This document shows, in pieces, positions 1,218 to 19,844 of a DNA stretch of 64,000 nt. Position 1 is the stretch's first letter. Each line of letters starts with the position of its first letter. This DNA is from Marivivens sp. LCG002 (GTDB lineage Bacteria > Pseudomonadota > Alphaproteobacteria > Rhodobacterales > Rhodobacteraceae): the NCBI RefSeq assembly GCF_030264275.1, contig NZ_CP127166.1, positions 45,001 through 109,000 of the forward strand. Reading direction: 5' to 3'. The position numbers and the translations under genes were made by a program. The notes under the pieces are model-generated. The model worked only from the letters and a program-made list of their open reading frames with translations. It was not told the DNA's origin and did not search any database.

Positions 1218-1883
1218 CTAATGATTGCTGTTTGCATAAACGGCGCAAGCGCGGGCGAGGGCGTAGGAGGCTCTGACCCCGTCGAGAAGGAGGCCTTGGG
1301 TTCTTCTTTGCAGATCATCGCGTAGATGCGCCATACCTGCACAGCCCAAGACGATCGTGTCGACCCCATCGGTGGCCATGGTCTTCTGAATCGCCGTTGC
1401 GAGTGTTTCGCGCGTCTCTGCGCTGCCTTCGTCGATCGTCAGAACGGGCAGATGGCTTGCCTGCACGCTTTGGCAAGACGCAGCGAAGTTCTGCTGAACA
1501 ATGTTCTTTTCGATAACAGGGATCGAGACGGCGAGGGACGTTACGACCGAAAACCGTTTGCCGAGCAGGGTGGCCATGGTGAAAGCGGCTTGACCGATTC
1601 CGAGCACGGGCACGGTTGATTTCGCGCGGGCGGCTTCGAGCCCTGTGTCGTCGAAGCAGGCGATGACGATGGCATCCGCGCCTTCGGCTATCGCGGTCCC
1701 GACAAGCGCGAGGACGCCCTTGATCGCGGTTTCTCCGTCTTCGGGTCCTTGAATCGCGGCGGGGCCGTCGACATTCGTGTAGCCGATCACCTCATCGGTG
1801 CCGCTCAGGGTCTTGACCACCTCTGTCACCCGTTCGGTCATGGCCTCTGTGGCGTTCGGGTTGATATAGGCGATGCGCATCAC
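1218..1883 (-). CDS. Asp/Glu/hydantoin racemase family protein
   Basis: The 221-aa protein belongs to the aspartate/glutamate/hydantoin racemase superfamily, cofactor-independent two-cysteine racemases. Both expected cysteines are visible: Cys76 in IACFDDTGLEAAR and Cys181 in VLGCAGM. The N-terminus IAYINPNAT is typical of the hydantoin/allantoin racemase branch. The start overlaps the stop of the upstream permease by 4 nt (ATGA), so it is the last gene of the ABC operon and probably epimerises the imported substrate or a derivative. The substrate cannot be read from sequence; a hydantoin, allantoin or amino-acid derivative is the family-based guess. Confidence 0.85.
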   Translation of the reverse strand: MMRIAYINPNATEAMTERVTEVVKTLSGTDEVIGYTNVDGPAAIQGPEDGETAIKGVLALVGTAIAEGADAIVIACFDDTGLEAARAKSTVPVLGIGQAAFTMATLLGKRFSVVTSLAVSIPVIEKNIVQQNFAASCQSVQASHLPVLTIDEGSAETRETLATAIQKTMATDGVDTIVLGCAGMAHLRDDLQRRTQGLLLDGVRASYALARACAVYANSNH

Positions 1884-2716
1884 ACGCCCTTTCCTGCATC
1901 CGAGCCCGCGCGTGCGCGGCGGATGTTCATAGCGCAGACCAGCAAGAGGAAGGCGAGGATGATCAGCAAAGAGAAGCTCGTCGTCAAAGTGCCCAAGGCA
2001 TAAATCACGGGGGTCGTGACGTTGGTCGTCATCCCGAACACCTCGAGCGGGAGGGTGTTGTAACTCCCTGCGGTCAGAAGCGTGCGGGCGAATTCGTCAT
2101 AGGAGAGGGTAAAGCCGAAGAGGGCAACGCCGATGAGCGAAGGCGCGATGATGGGCAGCACCACAAAACGGATCGTTTGCCATGCCGTCGCGCCCTGATC
2201 GCGGGCGGCTTCTTCGAAGCTTTTGTCGAAGCGGTTGAAGACCGCAAACATGATCAGAAGACCGAAGGGTAGGGTCCATGTGAGCTGAGAGCCGAAGCCC
2301 GAGGTTGCCCAATGCACCTTGAATCCGAGTTGGTTGAAGATAAGCCCCACACCGAGCGAGATGAGGATCGACGGGATCACCAGCGAGGTGATCGCCGCAT
2401 AAAAGAGGATCGCCGAGCCTTTGAAGTTTTTGCGAAAGGCCAATCCCGCCGACACAGAGACGACGACCGTCGTAACCATGACCATAAGACCGAGAACGAA
2501 CGAGCGGCGGAATGCGCCCCAGATGTCGCCGACCGCCTGTTCGCGGAAGAGGTCGTGGAACCAAAAGGTAGAGACCCCGTTCATTGGAAAGGTTAGCCCG
2601 CCCTCGGGTCCCTGAAAGCTCAGGATGCCGATTGTGATGGTCGGCCCGTAGAGAAAGAGCACGAAGAGCGCGAAGAAGGCGGCGAGGACATAGAAGCTGA
2701 GCGGTCTTTGTTCCAT
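1880..2716 (-). CDS. ABC transporter permease, PotC/PotI type
   Basis: This 278-aa inner-membrane protein has about six hydrophobic segments and the EAA loop EEAARDQGATAWQTIRFVVLP that contacts the ATPase. It resembles the second permease of spermidine/putrescine-type (PotC, PotI) importers. It follows permease 1 with a 1-nt gap and overlaps the racemase gene by 4 nt, so translation is probably coupled. Substrate is unknown. Polyamine, opine or amino-acid derivatives are typical for this family, and the linked racemase argues against plain polyamine uptake. Confidence 0.9.
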   Translation of the reverse strand: MEQRPLSFYVLAAFFALFVLFLYGPTITIGILSFQGPEGGLTFPMNGVSTFWFHDLFREQAVGDIWGAFRRSFVLGLMVMVTTVVVSVSAGLAFRKNFKGSAILFYAAITSLVIPSILISLGVGLIFNQLGFKVHWATSGFGSQLTWTLPFGLLIMFAVFNRFDKSFEEAARDQGATAWQTIRFVVLPIIAPSLIGVALFGFTLSYDEFARTLLTAGSYNTLPLEVFGMTTNVTTPVIYALGTLTTSFSLLIILAFLLLVCAMNIRRARAGSDAGKGV

Positions 2717-2717
2717 G

Positions 2718-3566
2718 TCAGAGTTCCTTTCGGATGTTCACAAAGCGAAGCAGGATGCCGATCACCAGAAGGACGGTGCAGAGCAGAACGACGGCTGTTG
2801 CGGCGGCCGAGGGATATTGCAAAAGCCCGATGTCGTTCGAAATCAGCCGCCCCACATTCGCGCGCTGGCTTCCCGACATGAAACGGACGGTGATGAAGTC
2901 GCCCATGACAAGCGTCACGACAAAGATCGTTCCGATCATGATCCCCGGTTTGGTCAGGGGAATGATGACATTGACAAGCGTTTGGAAACCCGTCGCCCCT
3001 GCGTCCCGTGCGGCTTCGAGCAGCGAATGGTCGATGCGCATCATGGTGTTGAAGATCGGCACGACCATGAAGAGCGTATAGAGATGCACAAAGGCAAGAA
3101 TGACCGAGAAGTCTGAATAGAGGAGCCATTCGAGCGGTTCGTCGATGACGCCCCAGCTGATGAGTGTCTGGTTGGCGATGCCGTTGCGTCCCAAAAAGGG
3201 AATCCATGAAATCATGCGGATGATGTTCGAGGTCCAGAACGGGATCGTGCAGAGCAGAAAGAGTGCGATCTGCCATGTGAGGCTCTTCACATGGAAGGCG
3301 AGGAAATAGGCGACGGTAAATCCGATGCCGAGCGTCAGAACCCAGACGATTGCCGCGTATTTGAACGTCGCGCCAAAGACCCGCCAAACCACGCTTGATC
3401 CGAAAAGATAGCTATAGTTGTCGAACTGGAAGGCAGGATAGATCGAATATTCGGTCGAGCCCCAGAAGCTCACGATCACGATCATGATGATCGGCGCGAC
3501 GAGAAAGCCCGAGAGGACGAGCGCGAGGGGCGCGGCCTGTAGCCATCCGATCAGATTGCGGGTCAT
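2718..3566 (-). CDS. ABC transporter permease, PotB/PotH type
   Basis: This 282-aa multi-spanning permease has an EAA loop LEAARDAGATGFQTLVNVI near residue 180. The start at 3566 (MTRNLIGW) is chosen because the first membrane segment begins right after it. The open frame runs further upstream, but that part has no family character and crosses the stem-loop after the binding-protein gene. It pairs with the next permease as a heterodimer, as in PotBC. Confidence 0.9.
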   Translation of the reverse strand: MTRNLIGWLQAAPLALVLSGFLVAPIIMIVIVSFWGSTEYSIYPAFQFDNYSYLFGSSVVWRVFGATFKYAAIVWVLTLGIGFTVAYFLAFHVKSLTWQIALFLLCTIPFWTSNIIRMISWIPFLGRNGIANQTLISWGVIDEPLEWLLYSDFSVILAFVHLYTLFMVVPIFNTMMRIDHSLLEAARDAGATGFQTLVNVIIPLTKPGIMIGTIFVVTLVMGDFITVRFMSGSQRANVGRLISNDIGLLQYPSAAATAVVLLCTVLLVIGILLRFVNIRKEL

Positions 3567-3592
3567 GGGGTGCTCCGGAACGTGAGGGGAGA

Positions 3593-3616
3593 GGGGCGCG
3601 CCGCGTGGCGCACCCC
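3593..3616 (-). promoter_or_regulatory. Intercistronic stem-loop between binding protein and permease
   Basis: On the transcribed strand GGGGTGCGCC and GGCGCGCCCC form a 10-bp stem with one G-U pair around a 4-nt loop. There is no T-run. Hairpins at this place in ABC operons often protect the upstream binding-protein mRNA and lower permease expression; that role is inferred here. Confidence 0.6.
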
Positions 3617-3627
3617 TTTGTGTTCGA

Positions 3628-4893
3628 TCAAGCGGCGATGAATTCGTTCCACTTGCGAACCATATACTGGTTCTCGTCCATGACGGCGTTCCAGCAGGCC
3701 ACTGCGCCCATGCGATCCTCGAAGGAGCCGCCGTCGCGGGTTTCGCCTGCTTGGGCCAGAACATCGCCGGTGGGCGAAGTGATGACGTCGGTTGCGGGTT
3801 TGCCTTCGAACCAATAGCCCCACTCGTTTTCGGACATGAAGGCCTTGGAGGTTTCGGGAACGGCCGAGTAATACCCCTGACGCATCAGATAGCCGCCGAC
3901 CCAGCCCGACAGATACCAGTTGATGTATTCATAGGCCGCATCGAGCGCCATGCCCGAGAGGTTGGCCGACAGACCAAGGCCGCCGCCCCACGAACGATAG
4001 CCTTCTTTGAGCGGCTGATAGACACAAGGAATGCCGCGCGATTTCACCGCCGTGATGGCGGGCGACCACATGGATTGGATAACGACTTCGCCCGAGGCCA
4101 TAAGGTTCACGGATTCATCAAAGGTTTTCCAGAAGGCGCGGAACTGGCCTGCGCGTTTTGCTTCGGTAAAGATCGCAAAGGTCGCGTCGATCTCTTCCTT
4201 GGTCATGTTGCCTTTGTCGCCATACTGGATTTCGCCCATGGATTCGCAGACCATCGCCATATCCATGATGCCGATCGACGAGATATCGAGGATCGAGGCT
4301 TTGCCCTTGAATTCTGGGTTCAAAAGCTCGGTCCAGCTTTCGATCGGACGACCGATCAGATCGGGGCGGATGCCGAGCGTGTCGGCGTTGTAGATGGTCG
4401 GAATGAGGGTCATCCAGCCCGTCTCTTCCGACGCGAAAGAGGTGCCGCCCGGACCTTCTACAAAGCCGACGGAATGCGGCGCGGTGCCTTGGGCGATTGT
4501 GCTTTCGGGGGTGAGTTTGCCGTTGCGGAAAATACCCACGATCTTGTCGTAGTTGGCGATTTTCGAGGTATCCATCGCCTGAAGGTTGCCCGTCGGCCAG
4601 ACTTTTTTGCAGATCCAGTATTCGATATCGGCGATGTCGAAGCTGTCGGGCTGGGTGGCGGCGCGCTGGGTCACGCTGTCGGAATCAAGCGCCGTCATTT
4701 CAAGGGTGAAACCGAGGTCCTCTTTGACCTTGGCGGCGACATCGTTGAGGTTGGACACGCCTGTGCCGAACTGGCGCAGGGTGATGTCCTTGATCTCTTG
4801 GGCCCAGATCATCGGGGCGGGAAGAGCGGCACTTGCGGCGGCGGCGACACCGCCCTTGAGAATGGCACGACGGCTATAACGCATTTTGGACAT
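3628..4893 (-). CDS. Tat-exported periplasmic substrate-binding protein, PotD-like
   Basis: This 421-aa extracellular solute-binding protein (family 1, PotD/PotF-like) feeds the neighbouring permeases. The N-terminus contains SRRAILKG followed by an alanine-rich hydrophobic stretch and an AQE processing site near residue 32. That is a twin-arginine signal, so the protein is probably exported folded. The internal start at Met4 is also possible. It is the second gene of the operon, after the ATPase. The ligand cannot be assigned from sequence. Confidence 0.9.
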   Translation of the reverse strand: MSKMRYSRRAILKGGVAAAASAALPAPMIWAQEIKDITLRQFGTGVSNLNDVAAKVKEDLGFTLEMTALDSDSVTQRAATQPDSFDIADIEYWICKKVWPTGNLQAMDTSKIANYDKIVGIFRNGKLTPESTIAQGTAPHSVGFVEGPGGTSFASEETGWMTLIPTIYNADTLGIRPDLIGRPIESWTELLNPEFKGKASILDISSIGIMDMAMVCESMGEIQYGDKGNMTKEEIDATFAIFTEAKRAGQFRAFWKTFDESVNLMASGEVVIQSMWSPAITAVKSRGIPCVYQPLKEGYRSWGGGLGLSANLSGMALDAAYEYINWYLSGWVGGYLMRQGYYSAVPETSKAFMSENEWGYWFEGKPATDVITSPTGDVLAQAGETRDGGSFEDRMGAVACWNAVMDENQYMVRKWNEFIAA

Positions 4894-4924
4894 TTCGTAT
4901 TTCCCTATCGGTTGGAGGTGGGGG

Positions 4925-5905
4925 TCAGGATTGGAGGCGGTGCAGCCGCCCCTCGTTCCAGGCGAGCATCACGCTGTCGCCCGGATTTTTGGGAGATTGG
5001 AAAAAGAGGGACTCGGGCACGAGCGAGAGAACCTCTTCGCCGTTTTCGGTAAGCGCGGTCAGAGCGACATGGCCGCCTTGATATTCAACCGCAGTCACAA
5101 CAGCCGAGAGGCCGCTATCCGAGAGAAGAACATCATCGGCCCGCAGGGCGAACTTTGTGCCATTGACCGCAATGACGTTGTGGCCGCCCATGAATTTTGC
5201 GACAAATTCGGTTTTCGGCGCCGACCAGACATCGCGGGCAGGGCCTGCCTGTTCGATGACCGAATTGTTCATCACCACCAGTTCGTCGCCGAGGGCGAGC
5301 GCTTCGTCCTGTCCGTGGGTCACATGGATAAAGGTGATGCCGAGTTCGCGTTGGAGCCGCTTGAGTTCGGATCGCATGCGGATGCGCAGGAACGGATCAA
5401 GCGCGGACAAGGGTTCATCTAGCAAAAGAACCTTGGGCTGGGTGACAAGGGCGCGGGCCAGCGCCACGCGCTGTTGCTGACCGCCCGAAAGCTGGGCAGG
5501 GAAGCGATCCGCATAGGCCGTCATATCGACCAGTTCGAGAAGCTCGCGGGCTTTGGCGTGGCGGGTGGCCTTGTCGATGCCTTTCATCCGCAAGGAAAAG
5601 GCGACGTTGTCGAGCACCGACAGATGCGGAAAGAGCGCATAGTTCTGGAACATCATCGCGGTGCCGCGTTTGGCGGGCGCGAGATAAGAGACGTCGAACC
5701 CGTCGAGAACGACCGAGCCATCGGACACGCTCTCGTGACCTGCAATCATGCGAAGGGTAGAGGATTTACCGCAGCCCGAAGGCCCTAGGATGCAGACGTA
5801 AGAGCCTGGTTTGAAATGGTAATTGATGCGGTCCACGGCCAGTGTCTCGCCGTATTTCTTCGTCAGATTGACGAGTTCGAGATCGTATCCAGCACCCATT
5901 TCCAC
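4925..5905 (-). CDS. ABC transporter ATP-binding protein, PotA type
   Basis: This 326-aa ATPase energises the PotABCD-type importer encoded downstream. It shows Walker A GPSGCGKSS, Q-loop QNYALF, signature LSGGQQQR and Walker B VLLLDEP. These are followed by the H-loop and a C-terminal TOBE-like domain of about 90 residues, as in PotA. It is the first gene of a five-gene leftward operon (ATPase, binding protein, two permeases, racemase) that diverges from the GntR regulator gene. Confidence 0.93.
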   Translation of the reverse strand: MEMGAGYDLELVNLTKKYGETLAVDRINYHFKPGSYVCILGPSGCGKSSTLRMIAGHESVSDGSVVLDGFDVSYLAPAKRGTAMMFQNYALFPHLSVLDNVAFSLRMKGIDKATRHAKARELLELVDMTAYADRFPAQLSGGQQQRVALARALVTQPKVLLLDEPLSALDPFLRIRMRSELKRLQRELGITFIHVTHGQDEALALGDELVVMNNSVIEQAGPARDVWSAPKTEFVAKFMGGHNVIAVNGTKFALRADDVLLSDSGLSAVVTAVEYQGGHVALTALTENGEEVLSLVPESLFFQSPKNPGDSVMLAWNEGRLHRLQS

Positions 5906-6061
5906 CCCATCCAGACGTTTGCAGGTCTTGTGTCGATGAGGTCAGCACAAACGATTCCGCGGGGCGGTAGCCATCGAAACCAAGTGCCGCGACGTCCGAA
6001 AATCACCGTTGCCCAGAATTTGGGCGCTTTGGGTCGGGGATGTTTCAAATTGTGCGCACAA

Positions 6062-6075
6062 AATTGTATACAATT
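6062..6075. promoter_or_regulatory. Putative GntR operator (perfect palindrome)
   Basis: AATTGTATACAATT is a perfect 14-bp palindrome between the divergent ABC operon (start 5905) and the GntR gene (start 6153). The TTGTATACAA core fits operators of FadR/VanR-type GntR regulators. Position and symmetry suggest it controls both directions. Confidence 0.7.
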
Positions 6076-6152
6076 GCGAAAACAATCTCGAATCAGATTT
6101 GTCGATTGCCCTTTGGTGCGTGTCGTTCCAATTTGATCCCAGAGGAATGACC

Positions 6153-6842
6153 ATGACCGATTTGCAAGACGCCCCCCTGACCACCGACCGCTTGTCCGAG
6201 CTTCTGGAGCTTGCCATCCATGAGCACAGGTTGGCGCCGGGCACCAAATTGGGTGAAGACGAGCTTGGCGAGATTTATGGCGTCAGCAGAACCATCGTTC
6301 GCGCCGCGCTCCAGTCTCTCGCGCATCAGCGTTTGGTGGAGTTGCGCCGCAACAAAGGTGCCTTTGTCGCCCAGCCCAAGATCAAGGAAGCGCGCGAGGT
6401 TTTTGAGGCGCGCGCCCTTCTTGAGCCGCGCACCGCGCATTCGGCGGCGCTTCGGATTACCGACGCCCAGATCGCCGCGCTTCAGGCCCATATCGATGCA
6501 GAGCATGAGGCGATCCACAAAGGCGACCACGGGCGTGCGCTCTATCTTTCGGGGCAATTCCACATCGAGATTGCGAAAATCGCCGATCAGGAAACCATCG
6601 CGGCCTTTATCCAACAACTGATTTCACGATCATCGCTGATCATTGCGCTCTATTGGCAGAGACGGTCGGCGCTTTGTGAAAGCAACGCGCATCACGCCTT
6701 GATGAAAGCGTTCATCGCACGCGACGGGGATCGGGCGCAGGAATTGATGAACAGTCATCTTGTAGACCTGATGACCTCGCTTGATCTGCGCAACATTACG
6801 GCCACGCCGACGACGTTGCGCGACGCGCTTGTGGGGTCATAG
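6153..6842 (+). CDS. GntR-family regulator, FadR/VanR (FCD) type
   Basis: This 229-aa regulator has an N-terminal winged helix (residues about 10-75; motif LGEIYGVSRTIVRAALQSL) and a C-terminal all-helical FCD ligand domain that starts around EVFEARALLEPRTA and contains the metal-binding-type histidines FHIEIA and HHALMKAF. The start at 6153 is preferred because AGAGGA (6141-6146) is then 6 nt away; the ATG at 6147 sits on top of it. It is divergent from the racemase/ABC operon, which it probably represses in the absence of the transported ligand. Confidence 0.88.
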   Translation: MTDLQDAPLTTDRLSELLELAIHEHRLAPGTKLGEDELGEIYGVSRTIVRAALQSLAHQRLVELRRNKGAFVAQPKIKEAREVFEARALLEPRTAHSAALRITDAQIAALQAHIDAEHEAIHKGDHGRALYLSGQFHIEIAKIADQETIAAFIQQLISRSSLIIALYWQRRSALCESNAHHALMKAFIARDGDRAQELMNSHLVDLMTSLDLRNITATPTTLRDALVGS

Positions 6843-6870: not shown

Positions 6871-7761
6871 TCAGGACCGGATTCCGTTCGCTTGTTGCGC
6901 TGTCGAAAGAAGCCACTCCACAAAGCCATCTGCTTCGGGATGGGTCGTGCCGCCTGCAGGAATGATGACGTGGAAGGCTTCGTCGATGGGAACCTCGATG
7001 TCGAAGGGGGCGACGAGACGCCCTGACTCCAAACTTTGCGCGGCCAGCGATTTGCGGCCCAAAGCCACGCCCGCCCCTTGGGCGGCCAGTTCCAACGCGG
7101 CCAGCGATGTATCGAGATGCAGACCCGAGCCCGCGTCGACGCCTGTGACCCCTGCGGACTTGAGCCAGATCCCCCAGCCTTCGTGATAGCCGAGCACATG
7201 GAGCAAGCGCTGCTCCGCGAGATCGGCAGGCGTATCGAGGCGGGTCTGCGGCGCACAGAGCGGCGTGATCGTCTCCCACGTCAGGCGGTGACTGTTGAAG
7301 CCGGGCCAATGCCCCGTGCCGTATTGGATGTCGAGATCGAAGTCCTGATCCTCGGAGGGTTCGTTCCAGACCGAGGAGAGAAGACGGATTGACCGCCCCG
7401 GATGCCGGTCAAGGTAATCGGGCAATCGCGGTGCCAGCCAGCTCACTGCAAAGGAAACGGCACAGCGCAGAGTGAGCGCGTTGTTGCGGCGCTGGCCGAA
7501 CACCTCGCGCGTGCCGATGGCAAGACGCTGGAGCGCGTCCTGCACCTTTGGCAGATAGGCTGCACCCGATTTGGTAAGCTCCAATCCGCGCGGGTGGCGC
7601 AGAAACAGCGGTGCGCGAAGATGGTGCTCCAGTGACTTTACATGCTTCGAGACGGCCGCTTGCGTGATGTGCAATTCGGCGGCCGCATGGGTGAAACTGA
7701 GCGTGCGCGCCGAGGCCTCGAACGCGCGCAGCCAAGTCAGAGGGGGCAGATCGAGGTTCAT
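6871..7761 (-). CDS. LysR-family transcriptional regulator, GcvA type
   Basis: This 296-aa protein has an N-terminal LysR helix-turn-helix (LSFTHAAAELHITQAAVSKH, residues about 21-40) and a C-terminal LysR substrate-binding fold. Sequence around LPPLTWLRAFEASARTLSF is typical of the GcvA branch. The start is fixed by the first methionine of the HTH domain at 7761; a much longer open frame upstream lies antisense to the dmdA-like gene and is not part of it. It is transcribed away from the dmd-like operon and is the obvious candidate regulator of that operon. The inducer could be DMSP or an acrylate-type intermediate, which is inference. Confidence 0.9.
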   Translation of the reverse strand: MNLDLPPLTWLRAFEASARTLSFTHAAAELHITQAAVSKHVKSLEHHLRAPLFLRHPRGLELTKSGAAYLPKVQDALQRLAIGTREVFGQRRNNALTLRCAVSFAVSWLAPRLPDYLDRHPGRSIRLLSSVWNEPSEDQDFDLDIQYGTGHWPGFNSHRLTWETITPLCAPQTRLDTPADLAEQRLLHVLGYHEGWGIWLKSAGVTGVDAGSGLHLDTSLAALELAAQGAGVALGRKSLAAQSLESGRLVAPFDIEVPIDEAFHVIIPAGGTTHPEADGFVEWLLSTAQQANGIRS

Positions 7762-7791
7762 CGGAAACTCCAAAACAGAGCCATAACTTTT

Positions 7792-7816
7792 CGTATGGGT
7801 GATGCCCATGAATACG
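7792..7816. promoter_or_regulatory. Putative LysR binding site
   Basis: CGTATGGG-TGATG-CCCATGAATACG is an interrupted dyad (outer CGTAT/ATACG, inner ATGGG/CCCAT) between the divergent LysR gene and the dmdA-like gene. This is the expected place for a LysR recognition site. It is supported only by symmetry and position. Confidence 0.5.
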
Positions 7817-7872
7817 TCGTTTGACCGCGCCCCGCCAGAGTGATCATTCAGGTGATAACCAAGGGAGGTCAC

Positions 7873-8976
7873 ATGTTCCAAGTATTCCCCACGGCGCGTC
7901 TGCGCCCTTCGCCGTTCTATGCCTCTGCCGTGGCAGAGGGTATGACTGCAGCCAGCATCTATAACCGTATGATTATGCCGACGTCCTATGGCGATCCCGA
8001 GGGCGAATATTGGCGGCTGATCAACGGCGTCTCGCAATGGGATGTCGGGGTCGAGCGTCAGGTGCAATTGAAAGGTCCCGACGCGGGCCGTCTTGCCCAG
8101 ATTCTGAGCCCGCGCGATCTCTCCACCTGCAAGGTGGGGCAGGGCAAATATGTGCCCCTGTGCAACCATCGCGGCACCATCATCAACGATCCGATCCTGC
8201 TCAAGCTGGCCGACGATCTCTATTGGCTTTCGATCGCCGACAGCGACATCTGGTTCTGGGCGAGTGCGATCGCCGCCGAACGCGGTCTTGATGTCGAAGT
8301 GTCCGAGCCTGATGTCTCGCCCATGGCGCTTCAGGGCCCCAAGGCAGAAGACGTGGTCGCGCATGTGCTGGGCGATTGGGTGCGCGATCTCAAATACTTC
8401 TGGTTCAAGGAAACCGAGATCAACGGGATTCCTGTCGCGGTTCAGCGGTCGGGCTGGTCCAAACAGGGCGGCTTCGAGATTTATCTCAAGGACGGGACGC
8501 GCGGCACCGAGCTTTGGAACATCTTCAAGGAAGCAGGTCAGCCTTGGGGGATCGGGCCGGGTGCACCGGCAACGGCAGAGCGGACCGAAAGCGGTCTCGT
8601 TTCGGTGGGCGGTGATACCGATGATATGACCAACCCCTTCGAAGTGCGCTTGGGCAAATATGTCGATCTCGATGTCGATGATGATGTGGTGGGCATCGCC
8701 GCTCTGCGCCGGATCAAGGCTGAGGGCGTCAAGCGTCACCAACTGGGGCTGGTGCTCGAGGGCGATGTGCCCGCGCCTTTGGGGTTCCGCCGCGAGGACA
8801 TCACCCGCAACGGCGTGCGCGTCGGTATGATGACCAACTGTGTCTGGTCGCCAAGGATGAAGGCCAACATCGGCTATGCTCTGATCGATGCGGGCGTTCC
8901 CGAAGGCGAAACGGTCCAAGTGCAACGCGACAAGGGCGCCGTCGATGCGCGGCTTGTCCCCTTGCCCTTCCTCTGA
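7873..8976 (+). CDS. dmdA: DMSP demethylase-like aminomethyltransferase (DmdA-like)
   Basis: This 367-aa protein belongs to the glycine-cleavage T-protein/DmdA family, which transfers a methyl group to tetrahydrofolate. The order of blocks matches DmdA: an FPTARLRPSPF start, QWDVGVERQV, YVPLCNHRGTIINDP, EPDVSPMALQGP and RSGWSKQGGFEIY. Length fits DmdA (about 365-370 aa). AAGGGAGG at 7861-7868 supports the start at 7873. It is the first gene of an operon with ligase, dehydrogenase and hydratase genes that match DmdB, DmdC and DmdD, which strongly supports a role on DMSP or a close methylated analogue. A different methyl donor is possible, because T-protein paralogs also demethylate other substrates. 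Confidence 0.7.
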   Translation: MFQVFPTARLRPSPFYASAVAEGMTAASIYNRMIMPTSYGDPEGEYWRLINGVSQWDVGVERQVQLKGPDAGRLAQILSPRDLSTCKVGQGKYVPLCNHRGTIINDPILLKLADDLYWLSIADSDIWFWASAIAAERGLDVEVSEPDVSPMALQGPKAEDVVAHVLGDWVRDLKYFWFKETEINGIPVAVQRSGWSKQGGFEIYLKDGTRGTELWNIFKEAGQPWGIGPGAPATAERTESGLVSVGGDTDDMTNPFEVRLGKYVDLDVDDDVVGIAALRRIKAEGVKRHQLGLVLEGDVPAPLGFRREDITRNGVRVGMMTNCVWSPRMKANIGYALIDAGVPEGETVQVQRDKGAVDARLVPLPFL

Positions 8977-8983
8977 GGTCGTC

Positions 8984-10561
8984 ATGCGGGCCCATTTCGA
9001 AAGTCCCTCGTGGCAGGATGCCAACCATGTGGCTCTTTCGCCGCTGTCCTTTCTCAAGCGGGCCGAGAGGGTTTACGCCGCTCGCCCCGCCACCACCTGC
9101 GGCGAGACCACGCGCAGTTGGAGCGAGGTCGGGCGTCGTTGCCGTGCGGTAGCGGCAGGGCTTGCGGCGCGCGGTGTCGGGATCGGGGATACGGTCGCGG
9201 TTCTTGCGCCCAATGGGCCCGAGCTCTTTGAATTGCACTACGCAGTGCCCTTGGCGGGCGCAGTGCTCAATGCCATCAACACGCGCCTCGACCCCGAGAC
9301 CGTGGCCTATATCCTCGGGCATTCGGACGCGGTGATGGTCATCGTCGATCCGACGCTCCGCGCGTTGCTGAACGATGCTTTGGCGCATCTGGGGCGCGAT
9401 TTGCCCGTTCTGGGGTTCGATGATTACGAGACGCTGGCCGCGCTTGAGCCGATGGACTGGACCCTTCCCAAGGACGAGGGACAGGCGCTTGCGCTCAATT
9501 ATACCTCGGGCACATCGGGCAAGCCCAAGGGCGTGATTTATCATCACCGCGGGGCCTATCTTATGGCGATGGGATCGGTCGCGGGCTGGGCATTGCCGCC
9601 GCATCCGACCTATCTGTCGGTCGTGCCAATGTTCCATTGCAACGGCTGGAACCATCCTTGGGCGATGGCCATCGTCGGCGCGCATATGATCTTTGTGCGA
9701 GAGGCGACACCCGCGAACCTTCTGGCCGCCATAGCAATGCACAAGGTCACGCATTTCGGCGCCGCGCCGATCGTGTTGCAAATGCTGTGCGAGCAGGCGC
9801 AAGAGCGGTTCTCTCCTGTCGTCAAGGTTCTGACCGCAGGGGCTCCGCCGCCGCCTTCCGTTCTTGAAAAAGCGGCGCTCCTCGGCATGGAGGTGATGCA
9901 GGTCTATGGTCTGACCGAAACCTATGGGCATATCGCACAGTGTCTTTGGCAGGAGGAATGGGAGACGCTTTCCCCCGAGGCCCGCGCCGAGCGTCAGGCC
10001 CAGCAGGGCGTTGCCTTCCCGATGGTCGAGGATATCCGCGTGGTCGATCGCAGCAGCGGGCAGGATGTGCCGCAAGACGGGCTGACCCAAGGCGAGATCG
10101 CCATTCGCGGCAACACCGTCATGAAAGGCTATTACAAGGACGAGGCCGCCACGGCCCAAGCCTTTGACGGAGGCTGGTTCTGGTCGGGGGATGCGGCGGT
10201 CGTGCATCCCGACGGTTACATCCAGATCCGCGACCGTCTCAAGGACGTGATCATCTCGGGCGGCGAGAATATCTCGTCCGTCGAAGTGGAAGCGGTGCTT
10301 TATCGCCACCCCGCGGTTCAGGCCGCTGCGGTTGTCGCGCGCCCCCATGCGAGATGGGGCGAAAGCCCCTGCGCCTTTGTCGAACTGCGCGAGGGCGCTG
10401 CACCGACCGAGGCGGAAATCATCGGGTTCTGCCGCGAGCGGATCGCCCATTTCAAGGCGCCCAAGACCGTGGTCTTTGGTCCCCTGCCCAAAACCGCCAC
10501 TGGCAAGATCCAGAAATTTGTGCTTCGTCAGGCGGCACGAGACATGGGAGAGCAAACGTGA
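8984..10561 (+). CDS. dmdB: Acyl-CoA ligase, 3-methylmercaptopropionate-CoA ligase type
   Basis: This 525-aa ANL-superfamily enzyme activates a short acid to its CoA thioester via an adenylate. The AMP-binding P-loop YTSGTSGKPKG lies near residue 173. The MQVYGLTETYG block and the C-terminal SGGENISSVEVE and KTATGKIQK motifs, with the catalytic lysine, are all present. In this setting the substrate would be 3-methylmercaptopropionate (MMPA), as for DmdB. The start at 8984 lies 5 nt after the dmdA-like stop. The stop overlaps the GTG start of the dehydrogenase gene by 4 nt. Confidence 0.82.
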   Translation: MRAHFESPSWQDANHVALSPLSFLKRAERVYAARPATTCGETTRSWSEVGRRCRAVAAGLAARGVGIGDTVAVLAPNGPELFELHYAVPLAGAVLNAINTRLDPETVAYILGHSDAVMVIVDPTLRALLNDALAHLGRDLPVLGFDDYETLAALEPMDWTLPKDEGQALALNYTSGTSGKPKGVIYHHRGAYLMAMGSVAGWALPPHPTYLSVVPMFHCNGWNHPWAMAIVGAHMIFVREATPANLLAAIAMHKVTHFGAAPIVLQMLCEQAQERFSPVVKVLTAGAPPPPSVLEKAALLGMEVMQVYGLTETYGHIAQCLWQEEWETLSPEARAERQAQQGVAFPMVEDIRVVDRSSGQDVPQDGLTQGEIAIRGNTVMKGYYKDEAATAQAFDGGWFWSGDAAVVHPDGYIQIRDRLKDVIISGGENISSVEVEAVLYRHPAVQAAAVVARPHARWGESPCAFVELREGAAPTEAEIIGFCRERIAHFKAPKTVVFGPLPKTATGKIQKFVLRQAARDMGEQT

Positions 10562-12201
10562 CCTTTGAAGCCCCTCTGGACGATCTTTTGTTCAACATCG
10601 CCGCCATCGCCGGCAGCGACGAAGATCCTGATGTCACCGCAGCCGTTCTTGGCGAATTCGGGCGTTTTTGCGCCGAAGAGATCGCCCCGCTCAACGCGTC
10701 CGGAGACCGCGAGAGTTCGCACTGCGAAGCGGGGCAGGTGAAGACGCCCAAAGGGTTCCGCGAGGCCTATGCCAAATTCATCGAGATGGAATGGCAGGGG
10801 CTGGTCCATCCGTCCGAATTCGGCGGACAGGGTTTGCCCAGAGCGGTCGGTGCGGCGGCGGGCGAAATTCTGAACGCCGCCAATATGAGCTTTGCGCTTT
10901 GTCCTTTGCTCACCGACGGGGCTATCGAGGCGTTGAACCACTTCGGCTCGGACGAGATCAAGGCGCGCTATCTTCCCGATCTGGTTTCGGGTCGCTGGAC
11001 GGGGACGATGAACCTGACCGAACCGCAGGCGGGCAGCGATCTTGCGCTCTTGCGTGCCCGCGCCGAGGCACAGGCGGATGGGACCTATCGCATCACGGGC
11101 ACCAAGATTTTCATCACCTATGGTGAGCATGATCTGTCCGACAACATCATTCATCTCGTTCTTGCGCGCACGCCCGATGCGCCCGAGGGCATCAAGGGGA
11201 TCAGTCTTTTCGTGGTGCCCAAGGTTCTCTTGGACGGCACCCGTAACGCCATTCGCTGCCAAAGCATCGAGCACAAGCTCGGCGTCCGCGCGAGCCCGAC
11301 CTGTGTTCTTGAATACGAGGGCGCGACGGGGTTTCTCATCGGCCGCGAAAACGCGGGTCTTGAGTATATGTTCACCATGATGAACGCCGCCCGTTTTGCG
11401 GTCGGTGTGCAAGGCAACGCGATTTCCGAACGCGCCTATCAACAGGCGCTTGCCTATGCCGAGACCCGTGTTCAAGGACGCCCCGTCGACGGGAGCGCCA
11501 ATACCGCCGTCACCATCGCCCATCACCCCGATGTGCGCCGCATGCTGATGCAGATGCGGGCCTTGACCCAAGGCGGACGGTCCCTTGCGGCCTATACCGC
11601 TGGTCTTCAGGACAGGGGCGAAACCACGCTGGCCGAGTTTATGGTCCCGCTGGTCAAAGGCTTTTGCACCGAAAAGTCGCTCGAGGTCACATCGCTCGGG
11701 GTGCAGATCCATGGCGGCATGGGCTTTATCGAGGAAACGGGCGCCGCCCAGCATTATCGCGATGCGCGGATTTTGCCGATCTATGAAGGCACGACCGCTA
11801 TTCAGGCCAACGATCTTCTGGGCCGCAAAACGCTCCGTGATCAAGGCGCCACTGCGACCCGTCTTGCGGGGATGATCGCCGCGACCGAAGCCGAGCTGCG
11901 CAATGGCGGGGCAGAGGCGCAAGCGATGGCCGACCGTCTGGCCGAAGCACGCGAGGATTTCCAAAGCACTGTTGCGCATCTTTTGCAGGCGGGACCCAAT
12001 GAGGCCTTTGGCGCGGCTGTTCCCTATCTCATGCTGGCGGGCAATCTGGTTGCGGGCTGGCAGATGGCCCGCGCCTACCTTGCGGCCGGAGAGGCAAACA
12101 GCCCCTTCCTTATCGACAAGATCGCCACGGCGCGGTTTTACATCCATCACATTCTGCCGGAGACCGGATTGCTGCGCGCGCGTGCAACAGCCGGACTTTG
12201 A
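10558..12201 (+). CDS. dmdC: Acyl-CoA dehydrogenase, MMPA-CoA dehydrogenase type
   Basis: This 547-aa FAD enzyme of the acyl-CoA dehydrogenase family has the long C-terminal extension typical of DmdC-like proteins. Visible blocks are MNLTEPQAGSDLA (FAD/substrate loop), EHKLGVRASPTC, QIHGGMGFIEETG and the catalytic-base region YEGTTAIQANDLLGRK with Glu near 410. The start is GTG at 10558, overlapping the upstream stop (GTGA), which implies translational coupling; no better start lies near. Predicted reaction: MMPA-CoA to methylthioacryloyl-CoA. The N-terminus is somewhat shorter than usual for the family. Confidence 0.83.
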   Translation: MTFEAPLDDLLFNIAAIAGSDEDPDVTAAVLGEFGRFCAEEIAPLNASGDRESSHCEAGQVKTPKGFREAYAKFIEMEWQGLVHPSEFGGQGLPRAVGAAAGEILNAANMSFALCPLLTDGAIEALNHFGSDEIKARYLPDLVSGRWTGTMNLTEPQAGSDLALLRARAEAQADGTYRITGTKIFITYGEHDLSDNIIHLVLARTPDAPEGIKGISLFVVPKVLLDGTRNAIRCQSIEHKLGVRASPTCVLEYEGATGFLIGRENAGLEYMFTMMNAARFAVGVQGNAISERAYQQALAYAETRVQGRPVDGSANTAVTIAHHPDVRRMLMQMRALTQGGRSLAAYTAGLQDRGETTLAEFMVPLVKGFCTEKSLEVTSLGVQIHGGMGFIEETGAAQHYRDARILPIYEGTTAIQANDLLGRKTLRDQGATATRLAGMIAATEAELRNGGAEAQAMADRLAEAREDFQSTVAHLLQAGPNEAFGAAVPYLMLAGNLVAGWQMARAYLAAGEANSPFLIDKIATARFYIHHILPETGLLRARATAGL

Positions 12202-12225
12202 CACTCTGACGAAAGGACCGATCCA

Positions 12226-13032
12226 ATGACCGTTCAAATCGACCCCGCCCGCTTCCGGAACCTTGATCTCGTGGCGCATGACGACGGCGTCTGGGTGGTC
12301 ACTCTGAACCGCCCCAACAAGCGCAACGCGCTCGATGCCCAATCGATCGAAGAGCTGGTCGAGTTTTTCTCGACCGCCCCGCGCGCGGGAATCCGTGCGG
12401 TCGTGCTTGCGGGGGCAGGGGATCATTTCTGTGCGGGTCTCGATCTTGTCGAGCATCATGATGCCGACCGCAGCCCCGCCGAGTTCATGCATCTGTGCCT
12501 GCGCTGGCATGAGGCTTTCAACAAGATGGAATACGGCGGCGTTCCCGTGATTGCCGCTCTCAAAGGGGCGGTCGTCGGCGGCGGGCTGGAGCTTGCCAGT
12601 GCGGCCCATGTCCGCGTGATGGACGAAAGCACCTATTTCGCGCTCCCCGAAGGACAGCGCGGTCTCTTTACAGGGGGCGGGGCCACGATCCGCGTTGCCG
12701 ATCTCGTCGGTAAAGCACGGATGATCGACATGATGCTCACGGGGCGGGTCTATCAGGGGCAGGAGGCCGTCGATCTCGGCCTTGCGCAATACCGCGTCGA
12801 AGGGTCGAGCCTTGATAAGGCGATGGAGCTGGCGCGCAAGGCGGCGCAGAACCTACCGCTGACCAACTTTGCCATCTGCTCGGGTATCAGCCATATGCAG
12901 AACATGTCCGCTCTGGACGCCGCCTATGCCGAGGCAGTCCTTGCGGGTGTCGTCAACACCCAGCCCGATGCGCGTTCGCGTCTTGCGGCCTTTGCCGACA
13001 AATCCGCTGCGCGGGTGAGACCCAACAGCTAG
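12226..13032 (+). CDS. dmdD: Enoyl-CoA hydratase family, methylthioacryloyl-CoA hydratase type
   Basis: This 268-aa crotonase-fold enzyme has the CoA-binding block HFCAGLDL, the oxyanion region [12 protein letters not shown], and two glutamates, Glu122 (GGGLE) and Glu142 (PEGQRG). These sit one residue from the Glu121/Glu141 pair known as catalytic in Ruegeria DmdD. DmdD hydrates methylthioacryloyl-CoA and releases methanethiol, acetaldehyde and CoA. As last gene of the operon it completes the demethylation pathway. Function as a general enoyl-CoA hydratase cannot be excluded from sequence alone. Confidence 0.82.
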
Positions 13033-16706: not shown

Positions 16707-17396
16707 GTGCTTATACGGGTGGGCCACGAGCGGTCGCTTCAGATGGATCTCATGCTTGCGGGATGGATGTCGTTCATCGCGGGCGCTCTCAACGCGGTCG
16801 GGTTCCTCATCGCGGGATCGTTCACGGCGAATATGACGGGCAATATCTCGATGTTCGTCGAGCATCTGGCCGACCGTGACACCATCCTTGCGCTGTCCTT
16901 TGCAGGGTTGGTGCTGACCTTTATCATCGGGGCGACCTTTGCCGCTTTGGTCATTCAAACGGGCGAAGCGCGCGGTGTGCGGAGCATCTACGGCTGGGTC
17001 ACTGCGATGGAAGCTGCTATCCTGATCGCGCTCGGCGCGGCCTTTCTCATCGGTCCCGCTTGGGCAGAGGAAACCCATCTCGTCATCGTGCTCAGCTTTG
17101 TCATGGGGCTTCAGAACGCAATGACCACCATGATTTCCAAAGCCCGCGTGCGCACCACCCATGCCTCTGGCATGGCGACGGATCTGGGGATCGAGATTGC
17201 CGCGCTGATGGGGCGGGGACAGGATCGGTCCGACACGATGGCGAAATTCAAGCTCCACAGCCTTACGCTTTTCAGCTTTGCCCTCGGTGGCCTCGGCGGG
17301 GTGTTCGGCTATCTGTGGGTCTCGAACTGGCTCTTCGTGATTTCGGGGGCGATGCTCGTCTTCATCGCCCTTCCGACGCTACTTCTGCGGGATTAG
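16707..17396 (+). CDS. DUF1275 (YoaK) family membrane protein
   Basis: This 229-aa integral membrane protein has about six hydrophobic helices and the DUF1275 blocks GWMSFIAGALNAVGFL, FTANMTGNIS, FVMGLQNAMT and THASGMATDLG. The start is GTG at 16707 with GAGG 6 nt upstream. The family is widespread, related to small transporters, and has no firm function. The stop overlaps the end of the convergent GlpD gene by 4 nt. Confidence 0.85.
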   Translation: MLIRVGHERSLQMDLMLAGWMSFIAGALNAVGFLIAGSFTANMTGNISMFVEHLADRDTILALSFAGLVLTFIIGATFAALVIQTGEARGVRSIYGWVTAMEAAILIALGAAFLIGPAWAEETHLVIVLSFVMGLQNAMTTMISKARVRTTHASGMATDLGIEIAALMGRGQDRSDTMAKFKLHSLTLFSFALGGLGGVFGYLWVSNWLFVISGAMLVFIALPTLLLRD

Positions 17397-18997
17397 AGCC
17401 GCATACGGTGTTTGCCCACCAGCATAGCGTGCGTCTTGGAAAGCTCTTCCTGCGTGCGGTCGGCAGACCATCCCAGCACCCGCGCCGCGATCTGCGCAAT
17501 CTCGGTGAGCGCGGCATTGGTCAACTCACCCCGCACCGCAACAAGCGTGCGGCGGATGACGATGTCGGCCAGATGCACGACCCGCTCGTTGTCGCAAATC
17601 CACTCGATCTCGGCCCGCGAGGTCGAGGCAAGATCGGTGATCCTCTCGCCGCCCTCCGCTTCGACCTTGGCAATCTCGAGCCCCGTGGCGCCATAGCGCT
17701 CGACGAGTTCGCGGGCGCGGCCGGACGTTTGGGTGACCGCCTCTGAAAACCCGCGTCCGCCCCCGATGGGCAGCTCGGATGTCGAAACGCGGCGCGTCCG
17801 TTCAAGCCGCCCGAGCACATCATCGGCCACTTCTTCGGCAAACCCGCGAAAGGTCGTCCATTTCCCCCCGACAAGCGAAAGGATGTCAAAGGGCCGCTCG
17901 GCTGTGGCCGCGATCACGGGCACCGAGTGGTCGCGACTGATCAACCCGACGGCAAGCCCGTCCGAGGCGGGCAGGGGCCGTATCCCCGAATAGGCATAGA
18001 CGATCTGGCTGCGATCCAAGGGAAGTTCGGGGAAAACATTGCGCAGCACATCGAAGAAATACTCGATCTCGTCGTCCTGACAGGCCACTTCGTCGGGGTT
18101 GTCCGCCCGAATGTCCGAGGTCCCGAGCATCACGCGCCCCTCGTATTCATAGGCCAGACAGATGCGCCCCTCGTTGGTTTCGAAATAGATCATGCGCCCA
18201 TTCAGCATCTCGCGAAGCTGTGGATGATCGAGCACCACATGCGATCCTTTGGTGCCGCCGATGAACTTGCTTTCAGAGCCAAGAACGCCGTTCACGCGGT
18301 CGATCCAAGGGCCGGCGGCATTCACCACGATCTTGGGACGGAAGGATTGCACGCCCGCCGCGCTCTCGACCGTGACCACGCCGCCTTCCTGACCCGTGAC
18401 GTTCGCATAATTGAGCGCAATGGCGTCCGAATGCGCCGCGCAGCCGTCCTTGACGAGTTCGAGCACAAGCCGCTCGGGGGCTGTGACCCGCGCGTCGAAA
18501 TAGGACCCCATCGCAACGATCCGGTCGGTGATCAGCGGCAATTCCCGCTTGGCCCGCGCCTTAGTCCAAAAGCTGTGACGCGGCATGACCCGCGCGCGCG
18601 ATCCGAAAAAGTCATAGATGAAGAGCCCCACCTCGATGAGCAGCGCCCCACGGCTCCGCGCCGCCGTTTTCGACCCGAAGAGGGTGCGCAGCGCGGCGGG
18701 TATCCCCTTGAGCCACGAAAACATCGGGATCATCGTTTCCAGCGGTTTGATCAGATGCGGCGCGTTCTTGAGCAACAGGTTCCGCTCATAGGTCGATTGC
18801 GCGACCAGCCCGAATTCCCCCGTTTCAAGGTATTTAAGCCCGCCGTGGATCATCCGCGATGGGGCGGCCGAAGTGCCCGAGCCGAAATCGCCCTTGTCCA
18901 CGATGGCGGAGGACACACCTTGTTCGGCCAGATCACGGAACAGCCCCGCCCCGTTGATCCCCGCGCCGATGATCAGAACGTCGATATCTTTGGTCAT
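17393..18997 (-). CDS. glpD: FAD-dependent glycerol-3-phosphate dehydrogenase family (GlpD/EryB-like)
   Basis: This 534-aa membrane-associated flavoprotein has the FAD fold GAGINGAGLFRDLAEQG at the N-terminus. It is followed by GSGTSAAPSRMIHGGLKYLE, typical of aerobic GlpD, and a C-terminal GlpD domain. Members oxidise glycerol-3-phosphate and pass electrons to ubiquinone; EryB of erythritol catabolism is a paralog acting on erythritol-phosphate. It is coupled by a 4-nt overlap to the upstream DeoR regulator gene and lies downstream of a dihydroxyacetone-type kinase. Glycerol or a four-carbon polyol phosphate are both possible substrates. Confidence 0.88.
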   Translation of the reverse strand: MTKDIDVLIIGAGINGAGLFRDLAEQGVSSAIVDKGDFGSGTSAAPSRMIHGGLKYLETGEFGLVAQSTYERNLLLKNAPHLIKPLETMIPMFSWLKGIPAALRTLFGSKTAARSRGALLIEVGLFIYDFFGSRARVMPRHSFWTKARAKRELPLITDRIVAMGSYFDARVTAPERLVLELVKDGCAAHSDAIALNYANVTGQEGGVVTVESAAGVQSFRPKIVVNAAGPWIDRVNGVLGSESKFIGGTKGSHVVLDHPQLREMLNGRMIYFETNEGRICLAYEYEGRVMLGTSDIRADNPDEVACQDDEIEYFFDVLRNVFPELPLDRSQIVYAYSGIRPLPASDGLAVGLISRDHSVPVIAATAERPFDILSLVGGKWTTFRGFAEEVADDVLGRLERTRRVSTSELPIGGGRGFSEAVTQTSGRARELVERYGATGLEIAKVEAEGGERITDLASTSRAEIEWICDNERVVHLADIVIRRTLVAVRGELTNAALTEIAQIAARVLGWSADRTQEELSKTHAMLVGKHRMRL

Positions 18998-19761
18998 GTC
19001 AAAGTCACTCTTTCCAACGTCACGCCCGAAGCGATCAGGAACTCTGCGGTCGCAGGATCAAGGGCGTCGTCCGTTATCACATGGTCAAAGGCGCTAAGCT
19101 CCGCAAAAGCGTGCAGCGCCCGTTTGTTGAATTTGTCCGAATGCACGAGCAGGATGCGCTTTTCGGCAGCGCGGAACATCGCCTGTTTGATCCGCGTCAG
19201 TCCTGCATCATGGATAAGTGCGACCCCGTCCTGAACCGCCGAGGCCGAACAGACAAAGCTATACACCCGAAGTGCATCGAGCGCCCGTTCACAGACATGG
19301 CCGATAAAGGCGTTATAGGTCGGATGATAATCCCCGCCCGTCGAGAGAAACGAAACGCCCTCGACCCCTGCAAGCATATTGGCAAGCCCGAGGCTGTTGC
19401 TCACCACGTGAATGGGTGCGCGTTCGGCCAGCATCGCTCCCAGCGGCTGACAGGTGGTGCTGTCGTCGATCATCAACGACTGCCCCGCCTCGATATGGGC
19501 AAGTGCGGCGCGGGTGAGGGCGGCCTTGGCCTCTGTCCCCTGTGCCTCTCGAAAGGCAAAGAGCGCCTCATAGACCGCAGAGGGCTGTGCGCTTACCGAT
19601 CCGTGTAGCTTGCGGATCACCCCCTGCCGCGACAACTCGTCGATCACGCGGTGGATGGTCATCCGCGAGACGCCGAATTCCTCGGTCAGCGTGTCGATCC
19701 GCACCTCGCCATGGGCAAGGACGTAATCGGCAATGGCTTTGCGGCGCTCAAAGGGTGTCAC
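18994..19761 (-). CDS. DeoR-family transcriptional regulator (GlpR-like)
   Basis: This 255-aa protein has an N-terminal DeoR helix-turn-helix (RIDTLTEEFGVSRMTIHRVI, residues about 21-40). Its C-terminal DeoRC sugar-phosphate sensor includes the motifs DDSTTCQPL and FLSTGG. DeoR regulators of this kind usually sense phosphorylated sugars or polyols. It is co-transcribed with the GlpD-type gene (4-nt overlap). A strong inverted repeat directly upstream is its likely operator. Confidence 0.88.
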   Translation of the reverse strand: MTPFERRKAIADYVLAHGEVRIDTLTEEFGVSRMTIHRVIDELSRQGVIRKLHGSVSAQPSAVYEALFAFREAQGTEAKAALTRAALAHIEAGQSLMIDDSTTCQPLGAMLAERAPIHVVSNSLGLANMLAGVEGVSFLSTGGDYHPTYNAFIGHVCERALDALRVYSFVCSASAVQDGVALIHDAGLTRIKQAMFRAAEKRILLVHSDKFNKRALHAFAELSAFDHVITDDALDPATAEFLIASGVTLERVTLT

Positions 19762-19773
19762 GGTCGAATCCGA

Positions 19774-19803
19774 TAAGTTATCACTCCAATATGTGATAAC
19801 TTA
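19774..19803. promoter_or_regulatory. Putative DeoR operator (11-bp inverted repeat)
   Basis: TAAGTTATCAC (19774-19784) and GTGATAACTTA (19793-19803) form a perfect inverted repeat with an 8-nt spacer. It starts 13 bp upstream of the DeoR start codon, in the 83-bp gap after the kinase gene. Autoregulation of the regulator-dehydrogenase pair is the simplest reading. Confidence 0.75.
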
Positions 19804-19844
19804 ACATCCAACTGTGTTACAAGTGGCGAAAGTGCCCTAGACGG

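Follow-up and report, generated by a model that had tools for sequence, protein, structure and literature searches.

Which methyl donor feeds an operon that is predicted to encode the complete route from methylmercaptopropionate (MMPA) to methanethiol, and that starts with a gene related to dmdA, the gene of the known dimethylsulfoniopropionate (DMSP) demethylase? The operon lies in a stretch of 64,000 nucleotides of Marivivens sp. LCG002 (contig NZ_CP127166.1, positions 45,001 to 109,000; hereafter the window, whose numbering is used throughout) and is preceded by a divergent gene for a LysR regulator. DmdA directs DMSP towards methanethiol and the assimilation of sulfur, away from the climate-active gas dimethyl sulfide, and dmdA serves as the marker for counting that capacity. 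On the basis of sequence comparison, the locus probably constitutes a self-contained DMSP-demethylation operon, the first step of which would be carried out by a demethylase of a sister lineage of classical DmdA, named clade X. The operon itself is real, intact and of a known layout type; the demethylase from the sister clade is its non-standard part.

Five intact genes were identified between positions 6871 and 13032, and the domain content agrees with the gene name in each case. The lysR gene is located on the minus strand (6871-7761) and is followed on the plus strand by the dmdA-like gene (7873-8976; 367 amino acids (aa), GCV_T and GCV_T_C domains), which encodes the predicted tetrahydrofolate (THF)-dependent demethylase, and by dmdB (8984-10561; 525 aa, AMP-binding domain) for an acyl-CoA (MMPA-CoA) ligase. 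Then come dmdC (10558-12201; 547 aa, GTG start), which specifies an MMPA-CoA dehydrogenase of the acyl-CoA dehydrogenase type, and dmdD (12226-13032; 268 aa, ECH_1 domain) for a methylthioacryloyl-CoA hydratase. A GGGAGG sequence is found just 5' of the ATG of the dmdA-like gene. A preliminary description of this DNA had reported four consecutive, partly overlapping genes with a divergent LysR gene. The arrangement was recovered at the positions given, and the overlap holds for dmdB and dmdC (4 bp), the other junctions being gaps of 7 bp (dmdA-like/dmdB) and 24 bp (dmdC/dmdD). The claim of a complete, co-oriented set was likewise supported, in that genes B, C and D (MMPA to methanethiol) are joined by a demethylase of the T-protein fold and the divergent LysR.

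Genes B, C and D can be regarded as the standard genes, orthologous to those of dmd clusters. DmdB scores 732 bits against the NCBIfam model PRK08162, above the cut-off of 677, and shows 62% identity to the ligase that adjoins canonical dmdA on pPGA1_262 of Phaeobacter inhibens and 61% to that of Marinovum pMaD9. It does not belong to the NCBIfam equivalog PRK07008 (3-(methylthio)propionyl-CoA ligase; 311 vs 822 bits), and the ligases linked to canonical dmdA likewise match PRK08162 and likewise fail PRK07008. DmdC is 63% identical to the DmdC of Sulfitobacter and 58% to that of P. inhibens, matches the DmdC structure 6ijc (E 9e-131), and contains both the IYEGT glutamate and the Acyl-CoA_dh_C domain. 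DmdD reaches 463 bits to the structure of Ruegeria pomeroyi DmdD (4izb), and is 77% and 87% identical to the proteins of P. inhibens and Sulfitobacter, respectively. The catalytic residues E121 and E141 of the R. pomeroyi enzyme (4izb/4izc) align with E122 and E142, confirming that both glutamates are shifted by one position as had been noticed before.

The first gene had been called demethylase-like within a dmdABCD-like operon; its product was not recovered inside the characterised DmdA clade. In trees of 64-90 sequences, the assayed DmdA lineages (Pelagibacter ubique and roseobacters) formed one clade (SH-aLRT 100), and the dmdA-like protein was placed in a second one, X. The two clades are sisters (SH-aLRT 98), and a third type, Y, branches outside them. 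The root is less certain than the split between X and DmdA, as the outgroup branches are long. Approximately unbiased (AU) tests rejected the grouping of X with roseobacter DmdA (p = 1.6e-6) and with SAR11 DmdA (p = 2.3e-5). A plain DmdA orthologue was thus ruled out by the tree, the AU tests and the profile score given below, and so was an ordinary GcvT, given that a separate GcvT is encoded in the genome and that the protein groups with DmdA. The identity to DmdAs of annotated clusters is 40-42%. DmdA-like homologues beside DmdA have been described earlier under the term 'non-DmdA' (PMC7487153), and clade X may belong to these. DmdAs that branch outside or peripheral to clades A-E were able to complement a dmdA mutant of R. 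pomeroyi (PMC10746254), and therefore divergence by itself does not rule out a demethylase function of X.

The protein retains 70 of the 93 columns that are near-invariant in DmdA, including the whole RSGWSKQGG(F/Y)ExY motif, here RSGWSKQGGFEIY, with W195, E202 and Y204 as active-site residues. These correspond to W197, E204 and Y206 of the P. ubique enzyme and to W171, E178 and Y180 in the alignment of PMC7487153 (the mapping of the numbers is our own), where the tryptophan of the motif was designated as the residue specific for DMSP and the glutamate and tyrosine as folate residues. The Y paralogues carry RTGWSSELG in place of the SKQGG motif, and clade X has diagnostic residues of its own, apart from those of DmdA. 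Among solved structures, the protein is closest to DmdA, the best PDB match being that of P. ubique (3tfh, 35% identity), and its AlphaFold2 model (pLDDT 83) yielded a TM score of 0.92 to 3tfh vs 0.86-0.89 for the best GcvTs. Considering motif and model, the X protein looks like a working demethylase of the DmdA type.

The proposed route would start with the transfer of one S-methyl group of DMSP to THF by the X protein, yielding MMPA and 5-methyl-THF. DmdB would convert MMPA to MMPA-CoA, which would then be oxidised by DmdC to methylthioacryloyl-CoA, and DmdD would hydrate and hydrolyse the latter to methanethiol, acetaldehyde, CO2 and CoA.

That DMSP is the methyl donor of the X protein we consider likely. 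The reading is supported by the match of B, C and D to clusters that hold canonical dmdA (62, 58 and 77% for P. inhibens; 87% for D of Sulfitobacter), and by the fact that the dmdA of such a cluster is required for the response of P. inhibens to DMSP, which is abolished by its deletion (PMC11306105). It is supported further by the DmdA fold and active-site motif kept in X, and by the absence of canonical DmdA from the genome. More explicitly, the genome contains six GCV_T places, namely GcvT, a DMGDH-like and a SoxA-like protein (names read from length and score), Y, X and a weak short match, and canonical DmdA was not found among them.

Support also comes from the recurrent linkage of X to dmd genes, acuI and mtoX, which we surveyed in 82 X loci (80 from a scan of one genome per species and two from genomes of the family). 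Partners within 6 kb included DmdD (at least 50% identity) at 15 loci, DmdB at ten, DmdC at four, AcuI at two and MtoX at one. All four genes, A to D, are likewise found together in Mesorhizobium huakuii NBRC 15243 (93, 73, 69 and 85% identical to A, B, C and D of the window) and in two metagenome-assembled genomes, of Beijerinckiaceae and of Mesorhizobium. At one locus (L061) lysR, A and D are followed by an mtoX gene, and at another (L127) acuI lies directly upstream of X, which recalls the dmdA-acuI pair of roseobacters, where acuI is a normal neighbour of dmdA (PMC3338564). Elsewhere, X genes were seen near genes for an MttB-like methyltransferase and a GMC (choline dehydrogenase-like) protein in Planktomarina and Phaeobacter (L033, L070, L072, L138), and near GMC genes in lake betaproteobacteria (L073, L087); X proteins with such neighbours might use other methyl donors or be connected with betaine metabolism.

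Several observations weigh against DMSP. The protein scores 360.5 bits against the DmdA equivalog PRK12486 of NCBIfam, under the cut-off of 410 (roseobacter-type DmdAs: 661-699), does not lie within the clade delimited by the two DmdA lineages with assayed members, and in the literature we found no enzyme assay of any clade X member. A BCCT transporter and MtoX were looked for in the genome and both are absent. At 61 of the 82 X loci none of the dmd, acuI or mtoX partners is present within 6 kb, and some X genes adjoin GMC-dehydrogenase-like, MttB-like or Rieske-like genes; these mixed neighbours and the partnerless majority suggest that part of clade X may use other donors. A rival reading is that the substrate of the X protein is another onium or methylthio compound (e.g. 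dimethylsulfoxonium propionate or another sulfonium carboxylate), whose demethylation would still give MMPA or something closely similar, to be degraded to methanethiol by B, C and D. Such a reading agrees with the distinctness of clade X and its diagnostic residues, with its many members in inland or soil organisms (judged from record titles) and with the mixed neighbourhoods without dmd genes, but X and DmdA do not differ in the motif that surrounds the substrate-side W, E and Y, and the linkage with acuI, mtoX and dmd genes is a repeated one, and we regard such a donor as unlikely. Placement of the protein in a T-protein clade for another methyl donor, the outcome that the preliminary description had set against DmdA, was not observed, as we found no assayed member of clade X.

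A further point against DMSP is that DmdD marks methylthioacryloyl-CoA and not DMSP as such. Its orthologue was present in 33 of 149 genomes of the family (71-87% identity; paralogues reach at most 52% and are clearly set apart). Of these 33, 14 lack any DmdA-like gene (lists compared by hand), so that DmdD must often receive MMPA-CoA from another source. On Sulfitobacter plasmids (L172, L173), AraC-dmdC-dmdD sets adjoin genes for methionine catabolism, encoding a methionine gamma-lyase, an aminotransferase and a protein with a transketolase-type E1 domain (2-oxoacid dehydrogenase-like), which is likely a route from methionine to methanethiol that bypasses DmdA and DmdB. Both findings, and the wide substrate ranges of DmdB and DmdC (PMC5395565), would suit an operon that mainly serves MMPA, methionine-derived methylthio acids or short fatty acids, with a T-protein that provides or regenerates one-carbon units independently of DMSP. 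We consider this improbable for the window, where no methionine-degrading gene adjoins the operon and where a dedicated CoA ligase together with a demethylase-fold gene in first position, common to distant bacteria, fits an acid made by demethylation. An accidental or decayed neighbourhood without joint function, for which nothing but the absence from congeners speaks, is hardly credible, as all frames are intact and tightly spaced, and as the same gene set and a divergent lysR with its footprint recur in other bacterial families. DMSP is favoured because the operon combines DmdC/DmdD with a ligase for acid activation and a gene of the demethylase fold.

The LysR protein (296 aa, HTH_1 and LysR_substrate domains) is GcvA-like, with 276.6 bits to PRK11139/GcvA, under the cut-off of 288, and 15 of the 82 X genes have a LysR with 45% identity or more in divergent orientation, in association with linked dmd genes (Fisher p 5e-7, indicative only as the sequences are related). 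Between the two starts lie 111 bp (7762-7872), for which a dyad had been reported. Palindromes are indeed visible, though weak (CCATA-N8-TATGG at 7781-7798, found by eye, and an imperfect one of 12 nucleotides at 7835-7852, found by a tool), and the perfect dyad as operator was dropped in favour of a footprint shared between loci, which constitutes the stronger evidence for a control region. The region contains CATAACTTTTNGTA, followed about 15 bp further by AATACGTCGTTTGAC. The first block of the footprint, CATAACTTTTCGTA (7782-7795, plus strand), has its single match in the window here and reads ATAACTTTT or ATAACTAAA in relatives; of 15 other loci with a divergent lysR, ten carry the element ATAACT in a comparable position. 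The second block, AATACGTCGTTTGAC at 7811-7825 (plus strand), contains a GTTTG(A/T) core that recurs 3' of block 1 in related loci. We infer that the operon is co-transcribed and likely controlled by the divergent LysR, a putative regulator that would probably sense DMSP or a breakdown product and act via the conserved ATAACT and GTTTGA elements.

The genome consists of 2.93 Mb and a contig of 227 kb, the latter holding the window. X is present in one of seven congeneric genomes (Y in five of seven), and in the tree the window protein groups most closely with the X protein of M. huakuii, ahead of those of other Rhodobacterales, which points to transfer between orders, with possible contamination of single contigs as a caveat. 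The operon was thus probably acquired laterally. Its G+C content (0.61-0.62) is only slightly over that of the surroundings. As regards a plasmid location, neither RP-C (RepABC-type) nor RPA replicon proteins were found in the genome, other replicon types and mobile elements not having been searched for. The earlier idea of a transferable cassette stands as regards lateral spread, according to gene tree and congeners, and a mobile element was not seen.

The dmd functions had been described as scattered in relatives, which is true for R. pomeroyi and not in general. Contiguous four-gene clusters are already known from the P. inhibens plasmid and from SAR92, and contiguity is thus rejected as a novelty. 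The cluster on pPGA1_262 of P. inhibens DSM 17395 (PGA1_RS19020-19035) shares with the window the four contiguous functions and a divergent regulator, but encodes a canonical DmdA (40% identical to the window protein), has the order dmdC-dmdD-dmdB-dmdA and is accompanied by an AraC-family regulator. The dmdA-acuH-dmdB-dmdC clusters of SAR92 also comprise four contiguous demethylation genes, with a DmdA peripheral to clades A-E whose function was shown by complementation (PMC10746254), but they belong to gammaproteobacteria, differ in gene order and have AcuH instead of DmdD. It was considered whether Y-type proteins from small gammaproteobacterial genomes could be the DmdAs of SAR92; their identity ranges agree, as does the order of the first three genes, but dmdC does not follow, and the assignment was not confirmed. 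The plasmid-borne dmdB-dmdA-acuI-SBP56 (mtoX) cluster on pMaD9 of Marinovum algicola resembles the window by its DmdB, and its MtoX is 83% identical to the MtoX beside the X-dmdD pair of L061; unlike the window it contains canonical DmdA, and dmdC and dmdD were not present in the stretch seen. R. pomeroyi has the same reaction scheme and a strongly similar DmdD, but also canonical DmdA and dispersed genes (dmdA SPO1913, dmdB SPO0677/SPO2045, dmdC/dmdD SPO3804-3805; PMC5395565).

The Marivivens genome contains a second DmdA-like gene, of type Y (C1:1825813-1826889; L043 9780-10949), followed by genes for an ECH protein and a PRK08162-like ligase, and such sets also occur on P. inhibens plasmids (e.g. 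pP88_b) and in gammaproteobacteria. They resemble the window operon in that a GCV_T-fold protein adjoins ECH and ligase, but the Y protein is 44-46% identical, lacks the SKQGG motif and lies outside the DmdA and X clade, and the ECH is not DmdD. At L232 (G1204) the place of dmdA is likewise taken by a non-canonical protein, another divergent T-protein (47% to Y) that directly precedes DmdB (52%) and DmdD (74%). A gammaproteobacterial genome carries two canonical-like DmdA genes in tandem (L205; G998 C48:16956-18002 and 18212-19252).

Directly upstream of lysR, positions 1218-6842 encode an Asp/Glu/hydantoin racemase, a Pot-type ABC transporter (two permeases, substrate-binding protein and ATPase) and a divergent GntR/FCD regulator. 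The transporter (1880-5905) was considered as a DMSP importer, which is unsupported, as elsewhere only a distant homologue, in L051, was found linked to X. Further downstream, at 17393-21584 on the minus strand, genes are found for a glycerol-3-phosphate dehydrogenase-like FAD oxidoreductase, a DeoR regulator and a Dak1-Dak2 dihydroxyacetone kinase.

More broadly, we tentatively propose that clade X may represent an unrecognised lineage of true DMSP demethylases, which has spread laterally, in part as a LysR-controlled cassette, among alpha-, beta- and gammaproteobacteria, some of them lake, soil or root-associated bacteria. DMSP demethylation could then be more widespread and less marine than is apparent from dmdA surveys with the present models. 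If X acts on DMSP, these models undercount demethylation, marker-gene surveys would miss X, and bacteria that lack classical dmdA, marine as well as inland, would be demethylators. If X acts on something else, the operon points to another compound that feeds the same methanethiol pathway.

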